From a virus, in the IMG/VR virus record IMGVR_UViG_3300010354_000379, positions 1 to 30,281 of that record: a stretch of 30,281 nt of DNA; one strand, given 5' to 3'. Within the stretch, counting starts at the first letter, position 1. The number at the start of each line of letters is the position of its first letter. The translations under genes and the position numbers were made by a program. Of this stretch, positions 7,162-13,734 are shown one piece after another. Under the pieces are notes generated by a model. The model did no database searches. It worked only from the letters and a program-made list of their open reading frames with translations, and was not told the origin of the DNA.

Positions 7162-7461
7162 ATGATTCCGCAAGACCTACAATTCTGTAAAGATTACATC
7201 GTTCATTTAGAAGCCGCAAAGCTTGGCTTCGGTAATATGCCGTTTCATATCCTCGCAGAGTTTGAGGCGATCTATAAACGCAACGTCATGGCAGGCTTTG
7301 TGCTTACATCATGGTGTCAATCCTGTGTATTGGATATGATGAAACGATTGGCTGCATATTACGATTCACTACCAAATGTAGAACCCATTACCCCTAAATC
7401 AGAAACCTTTGTCAACCCGTATGCTGATAAACCTAGACGAGGAAGACCAAAAAAATCATAA
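7162..7461 (+). CDS. Hypothetical protein with C-terminal AT-hook-like motif
   Basis: A 99-residue protein. The N-terminal 70 residues appear helical and include a cysteine-containing segment (TSWCQSCVLDMMKRLAAYYD). A Pro-rich linker follows, and the last residues KPRRGRPKKS match the AT-hook core RGRP with flanking Lys/Arg, which binds the minor groove of AT-rich DNA. The last base of its stop is the first base of the next start (TAATG). Function is unknown; a nucleoid-type or terminase-accessory role is possible. Confidence 0.55.
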   Translation: MIPQDLQFCKDYIVHLEAAKLGFGNMPFHILAEFEAIYKRNVMAGFVLTSWCQSCVLDMMKRLAAYYDSLPNVEPITPKSETFVNPYADKPRRGRPKKS

Positions 7462-8483
7462 TGAAAATATTAGCAATCGGAAGCCGTTTTAGTGGTGTTT
7501 CCTTTCATCGTTTGTTTATGCCGATTTCCTATATGGAAAAGGAATACGCTATGTTAACCGATAAACTAACGGAGGAGGAACTACAAAAAGGATATGACAT
7601 TGTTTTTATCAATAGGCACATTCCAAGTGTAGATGCTGATCAATTGATTGAATGGCGTAAACAATACGGGTTCAAACTGATAGTTGATATTGACGATTAT
7701 TGGTTCTTGGATCAATGGCATATCTTGGTTAAATACTACCCTACGGAAAAGATTATTAGGCATATACAGATAGCAGATGTGGTTACTTGCACAAATGAGT
7801 TTCTATACAACGAAATCAAACTGCTAAACAAAAATGTTTATATATTACCGAATGCCTTACCCTATGGTAAAGAACAATTCAGCGATATAAAACAAGAAAC
7901 ACTTGAAGCTGACGGAAAACTTCGGGTTATATATGCAGGCGGTATAACACATGAAAAGGATATTCAGTTAATCAAAAACCCTTTTAAAAGAATATCAACC
8001 GATCCATATTTAAAAAGTAAACTTCATTTCACGCTTTGCGGATATGAGCCGGAACAAAAACAAACGCATCCAATATGGCATAAAATGATTGATTCTTTTC
8101 TTTGTGGCTTCAAACTAAACGGATACATACGTGCAGCCTTGCCGGTTGATTCTTACATGAACTTCTATAACGAAGCCGATGTGTCAATTGCTCCGCTAGT
8201 TGAATCCAAGTTCAATAGCATGAAATCAAACCTTAAGGTATTAGAAGCAGCAGCAAAAAAACTTTGCATATTAACTTCTAATGTACATCCTTACAAATAC
8301 TGCCCATACGCAATCAAGATCAATAGTCAGCCTGACTGGTATCGTCAAATAAAAAAAATAACTTTTGATGCTATTTATAGAGAGGAGATGGCTGAAGCGA
8401 ATCAAAACTGGTGCTTTGAGAATTTCCATCTTGATAAAATAAACATTGAACGTAAACAAATCTTTCAGTCATGCCTGTCTTAA
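7461..8483 (+). CDS. Glycosyltransferase, GT4-like (GT-B fold)
   Basis: A 340-residue GT-B glycosyltransferase that transfers a sugar from an activated donor. The N-terminal domain starts MKILAIGSRFSGVSFHRL with an early basic His-Arg. VIYAGGITHEKDI (about residues 155-168) is the usual start of the nucleotide-binding C-terminal domain. ADVSIAPLVESKFNSMKSNL followed by KVLEAAA (about 240-265) holds the E-x7-E-type donor site. The length is somewhat short for GT4. It heads a cassette with a beta-helix transferase and a GT2 enzyme. Substrate is unknown; phage uses include modification of host surface glycans, virion proteins or DNA bases. Confidence 0.8.
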   Translation: MKILAIGSRFSGVSFHRLFMPISYMEKEYAMLTDKLTEEELQKGYDIVFINRHIPSVDADQLIEWRKQYGFKLIVDIDDYWFLDQWHILVKYYPTEKIIRHIQIADVVTCTNEFLYNEIKLLNKNVYILPNALPYGKEQFSDIKQETLEADGKLRVIYAGGITHEKDIQLIKNPFKRISTDPYLKSKLHFTLCGYEPEQKQTHPIWHKMIDSFLCGFKLNGYIRAALPVDSYMNFYNEADVSIAPLVESKFNSMKSNLKVLEAAAKKLCILTSNVHPYKYCPYAIKINSQPDWYRQIKKITFDAIYREEMAEANQNWCFENFHLDKINIERKQIFQSCLS

Positions 8484-8695
8484 AATGCTCAAACGGAAAA
8501 TATAGAATCGGATCGGGTTCTTGTATATACGACACAAAAGAAGAAGCGGAAAGAGTATGGGCAGCGATACGTGCAGAGGGTAAATACAAAAGCAAGTTTG
8601 TATCTTGTCGTAACTGCAAAGGTAAATTCTCGGTAACTATAAACCCAAAAGAAAAACATAATAGCTTTTGCCCACATTGTAAAACAGAAAATTAA
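8471..8695 (+). CDS. Small zinc-ribbon protein
   Basis: A 74-residue protein with two parts. The N-terminal half (LKCSNGKYRIGSGSCIYDTK, then EEAERVWAAI) is a pattern repeated in many phage proteins. The C-terminal half carries two Cys pairs, CRNCKGKF and FCPHC, forming a likely zinc ribbon. The start overlaps the GT4 gene by 13 bases and it ends one base before the next start. Role is unknown. Proteins like this sit as small accessory genes near terminase or glycosyltransferase loci. Confidence 0.65.
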   Translation: MPVLKCSNGKYRIGSGSCIYDTKEEAERVWAAIRAEGKYKSKFVSCRNCKGKFSVTINPKEKHNSFCPHCKTEN

Positions 8696-9196
8696 ATGCC
8701 TACAATCCACGAATCAGCACAAATACATACAACGGCAATAATATGCGACAATGTTATTATTGACGAAAACGTTATTATAGGTCCCTACTGCGTCATCGGT
8801 TTACCACCTGAATGGAAAGGATGGGAACACGCAGACAAAGGAGTTTACATAAAAGCAGGAACGAGGCTCACAGGGTTTGTAACTATTGACACGGGGGTAA
8901 ATAAAAAGACAATAGTAGGACGGAACTGCTACCTTCAAAAGCATAGCCATGTATCGCATGACTGCGAGTTAGGAGAAAACGTAACACTAGCGATGGGCGT
9001 AAAGATCGGAGGCAATGTTTTAATCGGGATGAATACAACCATTGGAATGAACGCAAGCATACATCAAAACGTAATGATCCCTGACGGAGTTATGATCGGT
9101 GCAAATGGTTTCGTTGGTAAGCATAGCAAGATTGAACGCTATCATAAATATGCAGGAGTTCCTGTTAAAAGACTTGGACCAAATCAAATCAAATGA
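8696..9196 (+). CDS. Left-handed beta-helix (hexapeptide) acyltransferase-like protein
   Basis: A 166-residue LbH protein of LpxA/acetyltransferase type. It has repeated hexapeptide turns (IIDENVIIGPYCVIG; ELGENVTLAMGVKIGGNVLI; GMNTTIGMNASIHQNVMI; PDGVMIGANGFVG), and the segment HSHVSHDCELG supplies a His-rich site as in LpxA-like enzymes. The C-terminus YHKYAGVPVKRLGPNQI ends the helix. It could acylate an amino sugar made or used by the neighbouring glycosyltransferases. The start follows the zinc-ribbon stop directly and its end overlaps the GT2 start by four bases. Confidence 0.8.
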   Translation: MPTIHESAQIHTTAIICDNVIIDENVIIGPYCVIGLPPEWKGWEHADKGVYIKAGTRLTGFVTIDTGVNKKTIVGRNCYLQKHSHVSHDCELGENVTLAMGVKIGGNVLIGMNTTIGMNASIHQNVMIPDGVMIGANGFVGKHSKIERYHKYAGVPVKRLGPNQIK

Positions 9197-9831
9197 GTGT
9201 AATATATCTTAATTACGATGCACGTGGTCGCTATGACGCTGAAGTAAAGCAATCAATTGCTACTGATAAAATATACGAAGTCAATCGCTTGGGAATATCA
9301 GCGGCAATAAACGAAGGGATGCGATATTGGTTTCAGTACAATAGTGCTGAATATGTTTTTATTTGTGCAAACGATATATTGCTACCTCGTGAATGGAAGG
9401 AGAAATTGATCCATGCCTATCAAAAAATACCGAACACGGGAATGATAGCCGTGTATTGCGTTGAGAACCTACCGCCCGAACAAATGATAAACGGAATCAA
9501 AATACATCCTGAATGGGGTGTATTCGGTGATTGTTTAATTAGTAGACAGGCTTGGGAAAAGATCGGGTATTGGAATACAGAACAAGACCCATATGGAATG
9601 AATGATTCCGACTATTGCTACCGCCTACACAAAGCAGGATTCTTAAACTATTATCTTGGCGGTTTACGTGCCGATCATTTAGGACATGACGTAGGCGACG
9701 GCGGTCAATACCGTAAAATGAAGGATGAAGGATTAAATAAAGCACTGGCAGTTTACAACAAATGGGTACCTATCTATGACGCAGGTCATCTATATTTGCC
9801 ATACGATCAAGCAGGAATTTACATAAAATAA
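9193..9831 (+). CDS. Glycosyltransferase, GT2-like (GT-A fold)
   Basis: A 212-residue GT-A enzyme. YVFICANDILLPREW (about residues 54-68) carries the metal-binding acidic site after the nucleotide-binding strand, with ND in place of the usual DxD. GDCLISRQAWEKIGYW and YGMNDSDYCYRLHKAG (about 132-147) match the acceptor and catalytic region, where D-S-D replaces the common E-D. The protein is short for the family and lacks the first part of the usual Rossmann start. It completes the GT4-LbH-GT2 cassette. The acceptor is unknown. Confidence 0.75.
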   Translation: MSVIYLNYDARGRYDAEVKQSIATDKIYEVNRLGISAAINEGMRYWFQYNSAEYVFICANDILLPREWKEKLIHAYQKIPNTGMIAVYCVENLPPEQMINGIKIHPEWGVFGDCLISRQAWEKIGYWNTEQDPYGMNDSDYCYRLHKAGFLNYYLGGLRADHLGHDVGDGGQYRKMKDEGLNKALAVYNKWVPIYDAGHLYLPYDQAGIYIK

Positions 9832-9835
9832 ATAT

Positions 9836-11002
9836 ATGGAAATCAAAGTCGTATCAATAAAAGATGTAAAGGCTAACCCGAACAATCCTAGAATAATAAA
9901 GGATGATAAGTTTCATAAACTGGTCAAGTCTATTAAAGAGTTTCCTCAAATGCTAAACATACGCCCAATTGTAGTTAATGAGGATATGATTGTGCTTGGA
10001 GGTAATATGCGACTGAAGGCTTGTAAAGAGGCAGGACTTACTGAAGTGCCGATAATCAAAGCAAATGATCTAACCGAAGAACAACAAAAGGAATTTATAA
10101 TAAAAGATAATGTTGGCTTCGGTGAATGGGATTGGGAAGACCTTGCAAACAATTGGAATGCTGAACAACTGAATGAATGGGGATTGGATATACCGGACTT
10201 TAAGCCAATAGAAGCAGAAGCACAGGAGGACGATTACGAAATACCTGAAGAGATAAAAACGGATATTGTACTCGGTGATTTGTTTGAGATTGGACCACAT
10301 CGTTTGCTTTGTGGGGATTCAACCGATAGCGACCAAGTGGCAAAGTTGATGAATGGACAAAAGGCAGATATGGTGTTCACTGACCCACCATATGGAATGA
10401 ATTATCAATCAAATTGGAGAAATAATAAAAGTGAAAATAAATTTGATATTCTTGAAAATGACAATAAATATCTTGATTTTAAACCTATTTTAATTTTATA
10501 TACAAAAGAAAATTCAGCTTGGTTTATTTGGACATCTCACCAAGTTTATCCGATTTGGAGAGATATGTATAAGGATTATTACATAAATACAATAATATGG
10601 AATAAAGGGAAAATGAGCATGGGTGATTTAAGTAGTTATGGTAACAATTATGAGATGGCTTTATTTTGCTCACAAGGTAAACCAAAGCTAAAAGGGGAAG
10701 GAAAAAAAGCAATATGGGAAATTAATGTTGAGGCAGGTTCCGAATATATGCACCCTACACAAAAGCCTATTACACTTTCAGCTTATGCAATTCCAGATTT
10801 TATAAATGATAATGATTTGGTTTTAGATATATTTCTTGGCAGCGGTTCAACAATGGTCGCAGCACATCAGCTAAATCGCAAGTGCTATGGAATGGAACTA
10901 GACCCTAAATATTGTCAAGTTATTGTGGACCGAATGATTAAACTTGATCCTACATTGGAAGTCAAGCGAAACGGCATACCTTATTCTAAAACAGCGAATT
11001 AA
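9836..11002 (+). CDS. ParB-domain DNA methyltransferase (beta-class, N6-A/N4-C)
   Basis: A 388-residue two-domain protein. Residues 1-95 are a ParB/Srx-like N-terminal domain (NPNNPR, VVNEDMIVLGGNMRLKACKE). The remainder is an amino-methyltransferase: GPHRLLCGDST, the catalytic TDPPYG (residues 182-187), HPTQKP (306-311) and the SAM-binding DIFLGSGST (331-339). The DPPY-before-FxGxG order is that of beta-class enzymes. The target-recognition region between them (encoded by about 10411-10620) has roughly 23% GC against 40-43% at the flanks. Such genes often sit just upstream of phage terminase. They can protect DNA from restriction or mark it for packaging. No cognate endonuclease is seen. Confidence 0.9.
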   Translation: MEIKVVSIKDVKANPNNPRIIKDDKFHKLVKSIKEFPQMLNIRPIVVNEDMIVLGGNMRLKACKEAGLTEVPIIKANDLTEEQQKEFIIKDNVGFGEWDWEDLANNWNAEQLNEWGLDIPDFKPIEAEAQEDDYEIPEEIKTDIVLGDLFEIGPHRLLCGDSTDSDQVAKLMNGQKADMVFTDPPYGMNYQSNWRNNKSENKFDILENDNKYLDFKPILILYTKENSAWFIWTSHQVYPIWRDMYKDYYINTIIWNKGKMSMGDLSSYGNNYEMALFCSQGKPKLKGEGKKAIWEINVEAGSEYMHPTQKPITLSAYAIPDFINDNDLVLDIFLGSGSTMVAAHQLNRKCYGMELDPKYCQVIVDRMIKLDPTLEVKRNGIPYSKTAN

Positions 11003-11007
11003 CAGCC

Positions 11008-11376
11008 ATGCCTAATCCAGAGAATGTATTACCGTATAGAATGAAAAAGGGTGAGACTTTAAACCCTAATGGCAGACCTAGAAAGTACGTTAGCCTATTG
11101 AAAGAGCAAGGGTATAAACTATCGGAGATCAACGATACGATACAGACTATGCTTTCAATGGACGTCAGTGAACTGAAGCAGGTTTGGGATAACCCGAAGG
11201 CTACGATACTTGAAAAGACGATAGCGAACGCAATGCGTAAATCATTGGAGAAGGGTAGCCTGTATTCAATTGAAACTTTACTTACCCGTGTATATGGTAA
11301 ACCAAAAGAAACATCTCAAGTACAGACTGATAGCAGGATTGAGGTTGTATTCGTTGATGGGAAAACAATTTTATGA
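11008..11376 (+). CDS. terS: Terminase small subunit-like protein
   Basis: A 122-residue protein. The N-terminal MKKGETLNPNGRPRKY matches the KGxSGNPxGRP motif of DUF5681-type proteins found upstream of large terminases. The central helices and the basic segment are consistent with DNA recognition. The C-terminal GKPKETSQVQ followed by a strand is typical of small terminase proteins of Bacteroidota phages. It overlaps the large subunit gene by four bases (ATGA), which supports coupling. It would bind the packaging site and pass the DNA to the large subunit. The HTH is not obvious, so the call depends partly on position. Confidence 0.7.
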   Translation: MPNPENVLPYRMKKGETLNPNGRPRKYVSLLKEQGYKLSEINDTIQTMLSMDVSELKQVWDNPKATILEKTIANAMRKSLEKGSLYSIETLLTRVYGKPKETSQVQTDSRIEVVFVDGKTIL

Positions 11377-12530
11377 CGATTGAACTGCCGAAGCCACATA
11401 TTAATCAACAGGGAATACTTAATAATTCAAGTAGGTTTAGAGTAGTTTTATGTGGTCGTAGATTTGGCAAGAGTGAACTTTCACAGATAGAATTGATCAA
11501 ACGTGCGTTAACAGGTGAGCAGGTAGCGTATATAACTCCTACCTACAATCTAGCAAAAACATTCTTTGATCGTTTAGCAAAAGCAGTACCTTTTCCTGCA
11601 AACCGCTCCGAACTTAATATGTCTTTTCCGAATAACGGATCGGTCCAATTCTTTACAGGTGAGCGGTTGGATAACCTGCGAGGTCGGAAGTTTAATTTTG
11701 TGATCGTTGATGAGGCTTCGTTTATTCCAGACCTTGAAAATGGTTGGCTTAATTCAATACGACCTACCCTTACCGATTACAAAGGTCATGCTTTATTTCT
11801 ATCCACGCCAAAAGGTAAAAACTATTTCTATTCCCTTTACATGAAAGGAATAAGCGGTGAACCTGATTGGGCATCGTTTAAGTTTAGCACCTACGATAAT
11901 CCGTATATTGATAAAGCAGAGATTGAAGATGCAAGGCGACAGCTACCCGAAGTAGTTTTTGAGCAGGAATACATGGCGAACCCTTCAGAAAATGCGGCCA
12001 ATCCGTTTGGGTATGCTTACATCAAACAATGTACTTTCCCGATATCAATGAACCCACCCGTATGCTATGGAATAGACCTTGCAAAGTCCGTTGACTGGAC
12101 GGTTATAACGGGACTGGATAAAAACGGATCGGTTTGTTATTTTGACCGATTCCAAAAGGATTGGAGGCAAACAAAGGAAACGATTAAAAGCCTTGTTCCT
12201 GCCCCTATCTTGTTAGATAGCACAGGAGTAGGCGACCCGATCTTTGAAGACCTACAAAGGGATAATCTGACCGTTACAGGGTATAAATTCAGTAGTACTA
12301 CAAAGCAACAACTTATGGAAGGATTGGCTTCAGCTATTCAGCAAAGGAAGATAACATTTCCAGAAGGTGTAATAACGGAAGAACTGTTGATCTTTGAATA
12401 TCAATATACTGCACATGGGGTTAAGTACTCAAGTCCACAGGGTTTCCATGATGACTGCGTTATGTCTTTGGCTATGGCGTGGAGGCATTACCAAAACGGG
12501 GTAGGTACGGGTCGCTACTCGTTTGCGTAG
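11373..12530 (+). CDS. terL: Terminase large subunit
   Basis: A 385-residue packaging motor protein with an N-terminal ATPase and a C-terminal nuclease. Walker A is GRRFGKS (residues 28-34), Walker B is FNFVIVDEAS with D113 and E114, and the coupling motif is LFLSTPKG (141-148). The RNase H-like nuclease has its acidic residues at D235 (GIDLAKS), D282 (LLDSTG) and D360/D361 (HDD). All key residues are present. The length is short but normal for this group. It pumps DNA into the prohead through the portal encoded at 22785, a gene unusually far away. A promoter and RNA locus follow its stop. Confidence 0.95.
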   Translation: MTIELPKPHINQQGILNNSSRFRVVLCGRRFGKSELSQIELIKRALTGEQVAYITPTYNLAKTFFDRLAKAVPFPANRSELNMSFPNNGSVQFFTGERLDNLRGRKFNFVIVDEASFIPDLENGWLNSIRPTLTDYKGHALFLSTPKGKNYFYSLYMKGISGEPDWASFKFSTYDNPYIDKAEIEDARRQLPEVVFEQEYMANPSENAANPFGYAYIKQCTFPISMNPPVCYGIDLAKSVDWTVITGLDKNGSVCYFDRFQKDWRQTKETIKSLVPAPILLDSTGVGDPIFEDLQRDNLTVTGYKFSSTTKQQLMEGLASAIQQRKITFPEGVITEELLIFEYQYTAHGVKYSSPQGFHDDCVMSLAMAWRHYQNGVGTGRYSFA

Positions 12531-12562
12531 TATTTACGAATTTGGGAAAATCTTTTTATCTT

Positions 12563-12596
12563 TTTGGGTTACTTTTTAGAATTATTGGTATATTTG
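12563..12596 (+). promoter_or_regulatory. Bacteroidota-type promoter after terL
   Basis: TTTG at 12563-12566, 22 bases, then TATATTTG at 12589-12596, a full match to the -7 consensus TAnnTTTG. The predicted transcription start (about 12603) is at the base of a 9-bp hairpin. It is the only consensus promoter I see upstream of the late genes. Confidence 0.6.
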
Positions 12597-12602
12597 TATG
12601 GT

Positions 12603-12695
12603 CAATCCGAAAGATAGTAGAAGTATGTTTCGGGTTTGATTTAGGAGAACCCTCTTTAATTAAACCTACTTGCTTCTACCAAGTGGGTTTTTTTA
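12603..12695 (+). ncRNA. Candidate short terminated RNA (about 92 nt) with two complementary hairpin loops
   Basis: This is a transcript unit with its own promoter and terminator and no reading frame. Hairpin 1 pairs 12604-12612 (AATCCGAAA) with 12628-12636 (TTTCGGGTT), with a 15-nt loop. The second hairpin is the terminator at 12662-12690. The whole terminator loop CTTCTAC (12673-12679) is the exact reverse complement of GTAGAAG (12617-12623) in loop 1, so the two can form a 7-bp kissing interaction within or between molecules. A competing 5-bp helix GGGTT/AACCC (12632-12636 with 12648-12652) exists. The class is not known to me. It might be a regulatory RNA, a late-transcription leader, or packaging-associated. 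Confidence 0.5.
12662..12694 (+). terminator. Strong intrinsic terminator with loop complementary to upstream hairpin
   Basis: Stem AACCTACTTG with CAAGTGGGTT (10 bp, one G-T; 11 with the A12662-T12690 pair), loop CTTCTAC, followed by a T run through 12694. It terminates transcription from the promoter at 12563. Late genes downstream would need read-through or another promoter. Confidence 0.9.
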
Positions 12696-12712
12696 TTATC
12701 TTTATCGGAAAG

Positions 12713-12985
12713 GCAAACATAGTTTAAGCGTCAATAAACACGATTCGGCTATGTTTTATTAATCGCATAGAATGGGGCGTTGGTAATGCGAGCAGCAGTG
12801 CTAATTTCAGAGGCTGACCAACATAGCTGATACAAGCTATAAAGCGACTGAAACGACCAGTTAAGTATCAAAGTACTGGTTGATCATGAAGGCGGTGAGG
12901 GAACTCAATGCATAATGATTAGGCAAAGCATGGTTAAAAACCTATTAGGGCTAACTGTGCTTTGATCAATCTAACGGTTCAGGAA
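12713..12985 (+). ncRNA. Candidate structured non-coding RNA (GC-rich island, class unknown)
   Basis: This stretch has no plausible gene on either strand. GC over 12761-12960 is 87 of 200 (about 44%), against about 23% before (12541-12600) and 20% after (12961-13056); in an AT-rich phage that points to selected RNA structure. Possible helices: 12715-12722 with 12749-12756 (8 bp), 12779-12784 with 12817-12822, 12823-12828 with 12835-12840, 12856-12861 with 12875-12880, 12896-12899 with 12904-12907 closed by a GGAA (GNRA) loop, and 12878-12886 with 12963-12971. No match to tmRNA, RNase P, tRNA, hammerhead or group I core was recognised. It may instead be the 5' leader of the late operon. Confidence 0.45.
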
Positions 12986-13056
12986 TCTAATGCATAATAA
13001 TATAATCTAACATTGTTAAATAGTTTACTTTTATCTATATAAAATAAAGGTAAATA

Positions 13057-13734
13057 ATGACTTGGGATGACATCAATGTATTTCAGTATCAAGGACTTTA
13101 TAAGTTATTCAACGAAAAAGAAAAGCTAACAGATGATCAGTTTATTCTTGGGTTAGCAGCTATATGTACGAATAAGACGGAGAATGAATTAAAGTCCTTA
13201 CCTTTTTACCAATACGAAAAGATAGTTGAAGGTTTAGGTTTTGTTAATGAGCAAATCCCTTCGGTTACAGTATCGCATATAAATGTAAATGGCAAAAGGT
13301 ATCGTTGCGTTTATGATGTTCGCAATATGCCTGCTGCAAGATATATAGAATCCAAGCATTACGCTCTTGATGTTATTCCTAACCTACATAAGCTTATGGC
13401 TACAATGGTAATCCCACAACGTAAAGGATGGATGGGATGGAGGGATGACAAGTACGATGCATCTAAACATAGCGAATACTCCGAAGACTTTTTGCAGGTA
13501 AAAATCACCCATGTTCTTGGAAGCGTGGTTTTTTTTTATCAAATATTTCGCAATTGGATAAGGAGTTCACAGGGTTATTTGATCAGAGAGATGGTGAAGA
13601 CGGGGATGACGATGGACGAGGCGATACTGGGGTACATATCTTTATGCGACATTATGGATGGATTTATCAAACCGAACTGGTTGCCGAACATGAGCGAATC
13701 AGCTTGGAAAAAGCATTTGAAATACCCACGATAA
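13057..13734 (+). CDS. Putative tail assembly chaperone
   Basis: A 225-residue protein starting MTWDDINVFQYQGLYKLFNE, a start I associate with phage tail assembly chaperone-like proteins. It is mostly helical with a beta-like middle (VTVSHINVNGKRYRCVYDV). An open -1 frame overlaps its end and continues past its stop for 28 codons, the arrangement of lambda G/GT tail chaperones made by programmed frameshifting. It is first in the late block, after the RNA region, and tail genes follow. A nine-T run at 13529-13537 is also present. The function is inferred from architecture rather than a clear motif. Confidence 0.5.
   Translation: MTWDDINVFQYQGLYKLFNEKEKLTDDQFILGLAAICTNKTENELKSLPFYQYEKIVEGLGFVNEQIPSVTVSHINVNGKRYRCVYDVRNMPAARYIESKHYALDVIPNLHKLMATMVIPQRKGWMGWRDDKYDASKHSEYSEDFLQVKITHVLGSVVFFYQIFRNWIRSSQGYLIREMVKTGMTMDEAILGYISLCDIMDGFIKPNWLPNMSESAWKKHLKYPR

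Follow-up and report, generated by a model that had tools for sequence, protein, structure and literature searches.

RNA contacts made by kissing loops are already known, and in plasmids they are the basis of antisense systems such as RNAI/RNAII of ColE1 and the attenuators of the pT181 type, where the sense and antisense RNAs are transcribed from opposite strands of the same DNA. In phage lambda the late leader (6S RNA, or PR'-tR') consists of a promoter and a short terminated RNA placed before the late genes, and involves a Q-like factor. A further system is the pRNA of phi29, which is part of the packaging motor in phi29-like phages and pairs by 4-bp loop contacts (AACC/GGUU) (PMC7357161, PMC11476376). 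pRNA forms open chains or rings via two non-palindromic complementary loops on one RNA (PMC7357161), and in the p16 protein of phi29, which is the packaging ATPase, the nuclease fold is vestigial (PMC11476376). The RNA described here also has two complementary loops and in one group of phages lies next to the terminase gene; as judged from sequence comparison, it is one half of an undescribed two-RNA cassette that moves between Bacteroidota-type phages, rather than a packaging RNA.

The locus was found in a virus record of 30,281 bases, the whole of which is referred to as the window, where 526 bases without a convincing gene separate terL (11373-12530, + strand; 385 aa; PHROG 2, E 2.6e-45) from p225 (13057-13734, +). 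These are the upstream and downstream neighbours in the window's phage group and both lie outside the cassette. The window TerL matches the ATPase and nuclease domains of solved terminases, the nuclease match being to residues 230-376, and in this it differs from phi29 p16 with its vestigial nuclease. An 82-aa frame with a GTG start (12479-12727) spans the site and was disregarded; in relatives the RNA stems are kept by compensation and the loops are 6-8 nt long. Further upstream the window encodes a fusion-like protein (9836-11002) in which a ParB-like nuclease part precedes a DNA methyltransferase (PHROG 498, E 9e-95), and the block preceding the packaging genes (7461-9831) holds two glycosyltransferase-like genes and a hexapeptide-repeat transferase.

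Within the gap a small terminated RNA of about 92 nt is predicted (12601-12696, +), which scores 89.4 bits (E 1.8e-15) with model R1, the window itself belonging to the R1 seed; none of 200 dinucleotide shuffles folds as well as its strand (z -4.5). It is preceded by a -7 box, TATATTTG (12589-12596, +), that matches the Bacteroidota consensus TAnnTTTG (PMC7366714) and ends four bases ahead of the G at 12601, near which transcription is predicted to start. The consensus promoter of the original prediction is present in this Bacteroidota form, but a scan for E. coli-type sigma-70 promoters found none at the small RNA. The first hairpin, H1 (12602-12639, +), had been put at 9 bp and is longer than that, as a near-invariant base of nine pairs with one bulge is topped by a covarying inner stem closed by AUA/UAU, which carries the apical 7-nt loop 1 (N7; GTAGAAG, 12617-12623, +). 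This is followed by H2 (12643-12656, +), a hairpin with the loop AACC whose stem pairs show compensatory changes, and by H3 (12662-12690, +), an intrinsic terminator with a stem of 12662-12672/12680-12690 and a T-run to about 12694, which was the sole terminator-like site found in 12000-13500. The 7-nt loop of the terminator (N7'; CTTCTAC, 12673-12679, +) is the exact reverse complement of loop 1, as had been claimed, and a discrete terminated RNA with potential for loop-loop pairing is thus there with all of its stated elements and with H2 as a third hairpin besides.

Relatives were gathered in several ways. A search of IMG/VR based on TerL gave 80 relatives, twelve of which proved, in a word-7 blastn search with the intergenic region, to have the element behind terL. 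A pattern describing H1 led to 52 contigs; when an independent pattern describing the 3' half was used instead, almost the same set came back along with four true new members, so the conservation of the H1 base is not merely an effect of the first pattern. Patterns for the large RNAs described below added L151, L152 and L154, and a third pattern brought in no further true contig carrying the small RNA, its matches L159-L161 being due to chance. In total 47 distinct RNA sequences from IMG/VR phage contigs, the window included, were aligned, and 42 of these make up the counting alignment A1. Counts of promoters ahead of the large RNA covered 25 members of group A, which is window-like, and 17 members of group B. 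The sequence TAnnTTYG is found at the promoter position in 41 of the 42 aligned RNAs; TAnnTTTG occurs in about 0.4% of random 14-nt windows.

Perfect complementarity of the two loops is kept in all 47 distinct RNAs, over 6 nt in five RNAs, 7 nt in 37 and 8 nt in five, and this despite 22 variants of the loop sequence; when loops are drawn from different alleles, only 6% of the pairs match over 7 nt. In A1 all seven pairs of the loop-loop helix have changed on both sides, and all 289 cells are Watson-Crick with not one G-U pair or mismatch (0/289). For the whole structure standard pairs fill 95.6% of cells against 84.4% in shuffles, and covariation is 0.300 compared with 0.115 when shuffled and at most 0.080 for slid structures. 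Covariation of their own is also seen in the stem of H2 and in the apical pairs of the terminator; the core of H3 is G-C-rich and invariant, and its apical column pair 84/94 is A-U in 21 RNAs and U-A in 21. As the sequences are related and recombining these counts are not independent events, yet the lack of a single exception is still striking. The originally proposed pairing is borne out by covariation in both loops and stems, and in none of the 47 RNAs have the loops changed without compensation. The comparison shows two predicted loops that are held perfectly complementary by covariation while their letters vary among phages.

The original prediction pointed, as an analogy only, to the pRNA of phi29, which is a packaging RNA. 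Both are phage RNAs with two different, mutually complementary loops, which here amounts to a potential to pair, and in the phage group of the window the small RNA does lie between terL and p225, near the terminase gene. In group A it sits 3' of terL, from which small genes sometimes separate it, and some 360-410 bases ahead of p225 where no gene has been inserted. Unlike pRNA, however, it pairs over 6-8 nt, has its own promoter and terminator and always has a large RNA after it, and its location is not fixed. Contigs of group B reach up to 64 kb and have no match to the window proteins searched; in these the small RNA is upstream of recombination-type genes such as that for an Erf-like annealing protein (L154, PHROG 2324), and small genes are found upstream of the RNA, one of which resembles a nucleotide kinase (a name given from the appearance of the sequence only). 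In the divergent member L151 both Erf and exonuclease genes are downstream of the small RNA.

The RNA would also seem to be dispensable. Exactly one copy was found in each of the 20 records that carry it (20/20), and there was no copy in 19 related records chosen by similarity of terL or p225, including those closest in TerL, at 75-80% identity, with the proviso that these are often fragments and absence is not proven record by record. On the TerL tree no phylogenetic signal was detected for loop allele, H2 type or large-RNA type (20 changes of loop against 19.8 when shuffled), and the p225 tree likewise gave no significant signal for any of the three, the flank type of H1 having a weak one there (P 0.014). 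The absence of signal for these types on the two trees indicates that the cassette reassorts. It thus appears from these comparisons to be a single-copy unit that can be missing from close relatives and that reassorts among phages. The packaging analogy fails because of location, dispensability and the lack of linkage to TerL, with a TerL in the window that has both ATPase and nuclease regions, and a packaging RNA of the terminase motor is now scarcely credible.

The loops could instead pair between copies of the RNA, giving head-to-tail dimers or chains as in phi29. Two non-palindromic complementary loops per RNA is the arrangement from which pRNA chains and rings are built (PMC7357161), but pairing within one molecule is geometrically possible on a rough estimate and would be favoured at low concentration, and alleles one step apart are common, so that the loop alleles are not well separated. 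Intermolecular kissing would therefore seem very unlikely.

Free reassortment would also be anticipated of a selfish unit acting at the level of DNA and spread by endonucleases or recombination, in which the 7-mers and the large RNA would have no regulatory role. A few copies have an HNH-like frame close downstream: small HNH endonuclease-like frames were observed directly past the large RNA in L154 (3576-4067, PHROG 119) and in L123 (motif only; some 290 nt after the small RNA), a hint at homing activity around the cassette. Such motifs are however present at only 4 of 40 loci, with one or two of these doubtful, no match to group I or group II introns was found at permissive thresholds, and the stems show compensation of the kind expected for RNA; a homing element is on this evidence highly improbable.

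Directly downstream of the terminator a recognised type of large RNA, of roughly 230-370 nt, is found in all 47 distinct members, the predicted order being Bacteroidota-type promoter, small RNA, terminator and large RNA. There are at least five types, T1 to T5, which were recognised in 4, 7, 28, 4 and 4 of the 47 RNAs respectively, T2 and T4 being distantly alike. The large RNA of the window is predicted to be a multi-branched structured RNA of type T1, about 280 nt in length (12716-12993, +), on the basis of a fold z-score (-4.4 for 12697-13056) and of compensated pairs, 17 of 79 consensus pairs being compensated among only three sequences; its homologues are in L005, L009 and L123. For T3 the compensated pairs number 10 of 51, and for T2/T4 15 of 35. 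In scans for T3 and T2/T4 every element found was accompanied by the small RNA, with the exception of L153, which is cut by the contig end. Of the two halves of the cassette the large RNA may be the more important.

Two features near the large RNAs are worth recording in their own right. T3 RNAs (for example L110:4199-4425, L132:350-616 on the - strand, and L151) contain two direct repeats of 4-7 nt (AGTAGAT, AATAGAT, TATAG, ACTGT, AGAA), which vary between phages and are the same at both sites within a phage, the mean shared length being 5.9 against 3.5 across phages; a direct repeat that covaries in this manner is odd. In L094 and L088 an insert resembling tRNA-Leu (GTCAGGTGGCGGAA...GGTTCGAATCCTG...CTGACTAC) lies downstream of the small RNA near the large RNA, for which ARAGORN makes no call.

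The same complementary 7-mers can be arranged in two ways. In state I they are the apical loops of H1 and H3 and kiss, and in state II they make up an ordinary nested helix that encloses H2 and an alternative helix, S2, formed by GGGUUUGAU with AUURRACCC. In the window the first strand of S2, GGGUUUGAU (12632-12640, +), is part of H1 and can pair with AUUAAACCU (12659-12667, +), which overlaps the 5' strand of the terminator, and this pairing would open the terminator. The mean energy is -30.9 kcal/mol for state I and state II alike, state I being the lower in 17 of 42 RNAs, where nearest-neighbour energies leave out kissing loops and no term for them is included. In S2 and the base of H2 98.8% of cells are paired, although the conservation of S2 is not independent evidence because its strands also serve H1 and H3.

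With these two folds in hand, the reading that we favour, tentatively and at rather less than an even chance, is that of a two-RNA phage cassette in which the small RNA would serve the large RNA as its leader and act as a two-state switch. If H1 and the terminator form first, the 7-nt loops would kiss within the molecule, the terminator would be clasped and a short RNA released; if the 3' strand of H1 pairs instead with the 5' strand of the terminator as S2, the 7-mers would nest as an ordinary helix and the terminator would be opened, allowing polymerase to go on into the large RNA. Since the 7-bp pairing is common to both states, such a switch would explain why complementarity is kept and yet many sequences are allowed. 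The obligate order, a loop pairing that fits two folds of near-equal energy and the promoter missing before the large RNA in group B together suggest a leader that would set the balance of short and long transcripts.

It might be argued that the covariation comes from the nested fold only, as in an ordinary long hairpin, and that the loops never kiss. For the window RNA the fold of lowest energy is indeed nested, with the two 7-mers as an ordinary helix, and state II dominates the ensemble in many members of group A. However, complementarity normally stops exactly at the borders of the 7-nt loops, and the closing pairs of H1 and H3 covary by themselves. Furthermore, in L026 and L152 a C-A mismatch breaks S2 and H2 has been rebuilt, and loop pairing is retained; for L026 state II reaches only -15.4 kcal/mol, so the nested fold is broken and the 7-mers are complementary nonetheless. 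H1 would presumably also be the first to form during transcription. A nested fold without kissing appears unlikely.

The variant small RNAs of L026 (5573-5682) and L152 (3574-3682, - strand), in which the middle hairpin is rebuilt, also have GGGUCU in place of GGGUUU and, downstream, AGACC in place of AAACC, which is a possible compensatory pair between the 3' strand of H1 and the region of H2.

The sequence that follows the terminator was considered together with these folds. Addition of the next 35 nt pushes the ensemble to state II, with S2 rising from 0.52 to 0.80, but dinucleotide-shuffled tails raise it as well, to 0.68, and the effect is mostly generic. The 5' end of the small RNA is complemented just past the terminator by at least six Watson-Crick pairs in 33% of cases, against 2% of control windows, and this is clearest in group B. 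In L146 and others of that group the 5' end, GUCAAUCC, has its complement in GGAUUGAC immediately past the terminator, and in L146 both sides of this pairing have changed (GUCAGU/ACUGAC).

The main and close rival to the leader model is a stand-alone structured sRNA, in which the loops would kiss in one molecule and lock a compact, clasped form, with the large RNA a separate partner transcript, in a two-RNA complex or as one of a trans-acting pair, and free of leader control. The 7-mers coincide exactly with the apical loops of two well-formed hairpins, the pairs next to the loops covary (columns 12/30 and 84/94) and the loop helix is free of G-U pairs, all of which is in keeping with this, as is the finding that L026 and L106 keep H1, H3 and the loop pairing though the nested alternative is poor in both. 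A promoter box is furthermore found between the terminator and the large RNA in 12 of 25 members of group A, the window having none, and because a good TAnnTTYG box precedes it the large RNA could be made independently in those 12. The box is missing, however, in all 17 members of group B (0/17), and the nested alternative is otherwise well preserved. A target in trans was not found either, as a search for second targets of the loop 7-mers gave no excess of matches in the 330 nt downstream or the 600 nt upstream. A stand-alone sRNA of this kind is a serious possibility, if one that we hold more doubtfully than the leader.

None of the searches placed either RNA outside the phage contigs. Rfam 15 gave nothing at or above the gathering threshold in the window, and in eight relatives its single match was one tRNA, away from the small RNA. 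Permissive Rfam searches with the region of the small RNA and with T1, T2, T3 and T5 returned only sub-threshold matches at chance level. Cultured phages and plasmids held no meaningful match to the small RNA, and cultured phages no match to the large RNAs T5 or T3. In a set of genome contigs from 84,980 species the exact-pattern matches (L137-L144) were all unrelated, and a model search of 295 Bacteroidia genomes, the class to which the Flavobacteriaceae MAG G040 belongs, was without a match (0/295), a search for which no positive control genome exists. Bacterial DNA resembling T3 (L163 and L164) was rejected, consisting of short partial matches without the small RNA. In the literature covered, open-licence papers in PMC, neither RNA has been reported.

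When set beside the systems described at the outset, the cassette shares with ColE1 and pT181 hairpin loops of 7 nt that are fully complementary and the possibility of attenuating a downstream RNA, but in the cassette a single RNA strand carries the two loops, and nothing implies an antisense transcript. With attenuators and riboswitch-type leaders it would have in common, as far as the predicted folds go, mutually exclusive terminator and antiterminator helices ahead of a downstream unit, and it is always in cis, directly upstream of the large RNA (47/47). It differs from them in that a large structured RNA, and not a gene, lies downstream, and in that a covarying 7-bp helix fits both states. 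The phage group of the window resembles lambda 6S/PR'-tR' in having a promoter and a short terminated RNA before late genes, but in group B the RNA is not before late genes, the large RNA always intervenes and a Q-like factor has not been identified. What is novel, going by the predicted structures, is a terminated phage RNA in which the terminator loop would kiss the RNA's own 5' hairpin and which is obligately linked to interchangeable large RNAs.

Phage RNAs other than tRNAs are few, and those of Bacteroidota phages fewer still. To these is added an RNA family whose loop-loop covariation is unusually clean, with 22 loop sequences and not one exception to their complementarity among 47 RNAs. 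The small RNA is half of an obligate two-RNA module, and its larger partner comes in at least five sequence types. Being small, the module lends itself to clear predictions. Its reassortment suggests an accessory, "moron"-like function. A more speculative reading, which as a whole we regard as rather unlikely, is that of a modular two-RNA system of Bacteroidota phages, in which a small RNA of constant plan would drive or license one of several unrelated large RNAs and the loop alleles reassort, the large RNAs all serving one purpose, for example in counter-defence or in competition between co-infecting phages with the allele as a means of self-recognition. Were the large RNAs to act in conflict between phage and host or between phages, the cassette would be an RNA-only accessory system that is exchanged between phages.
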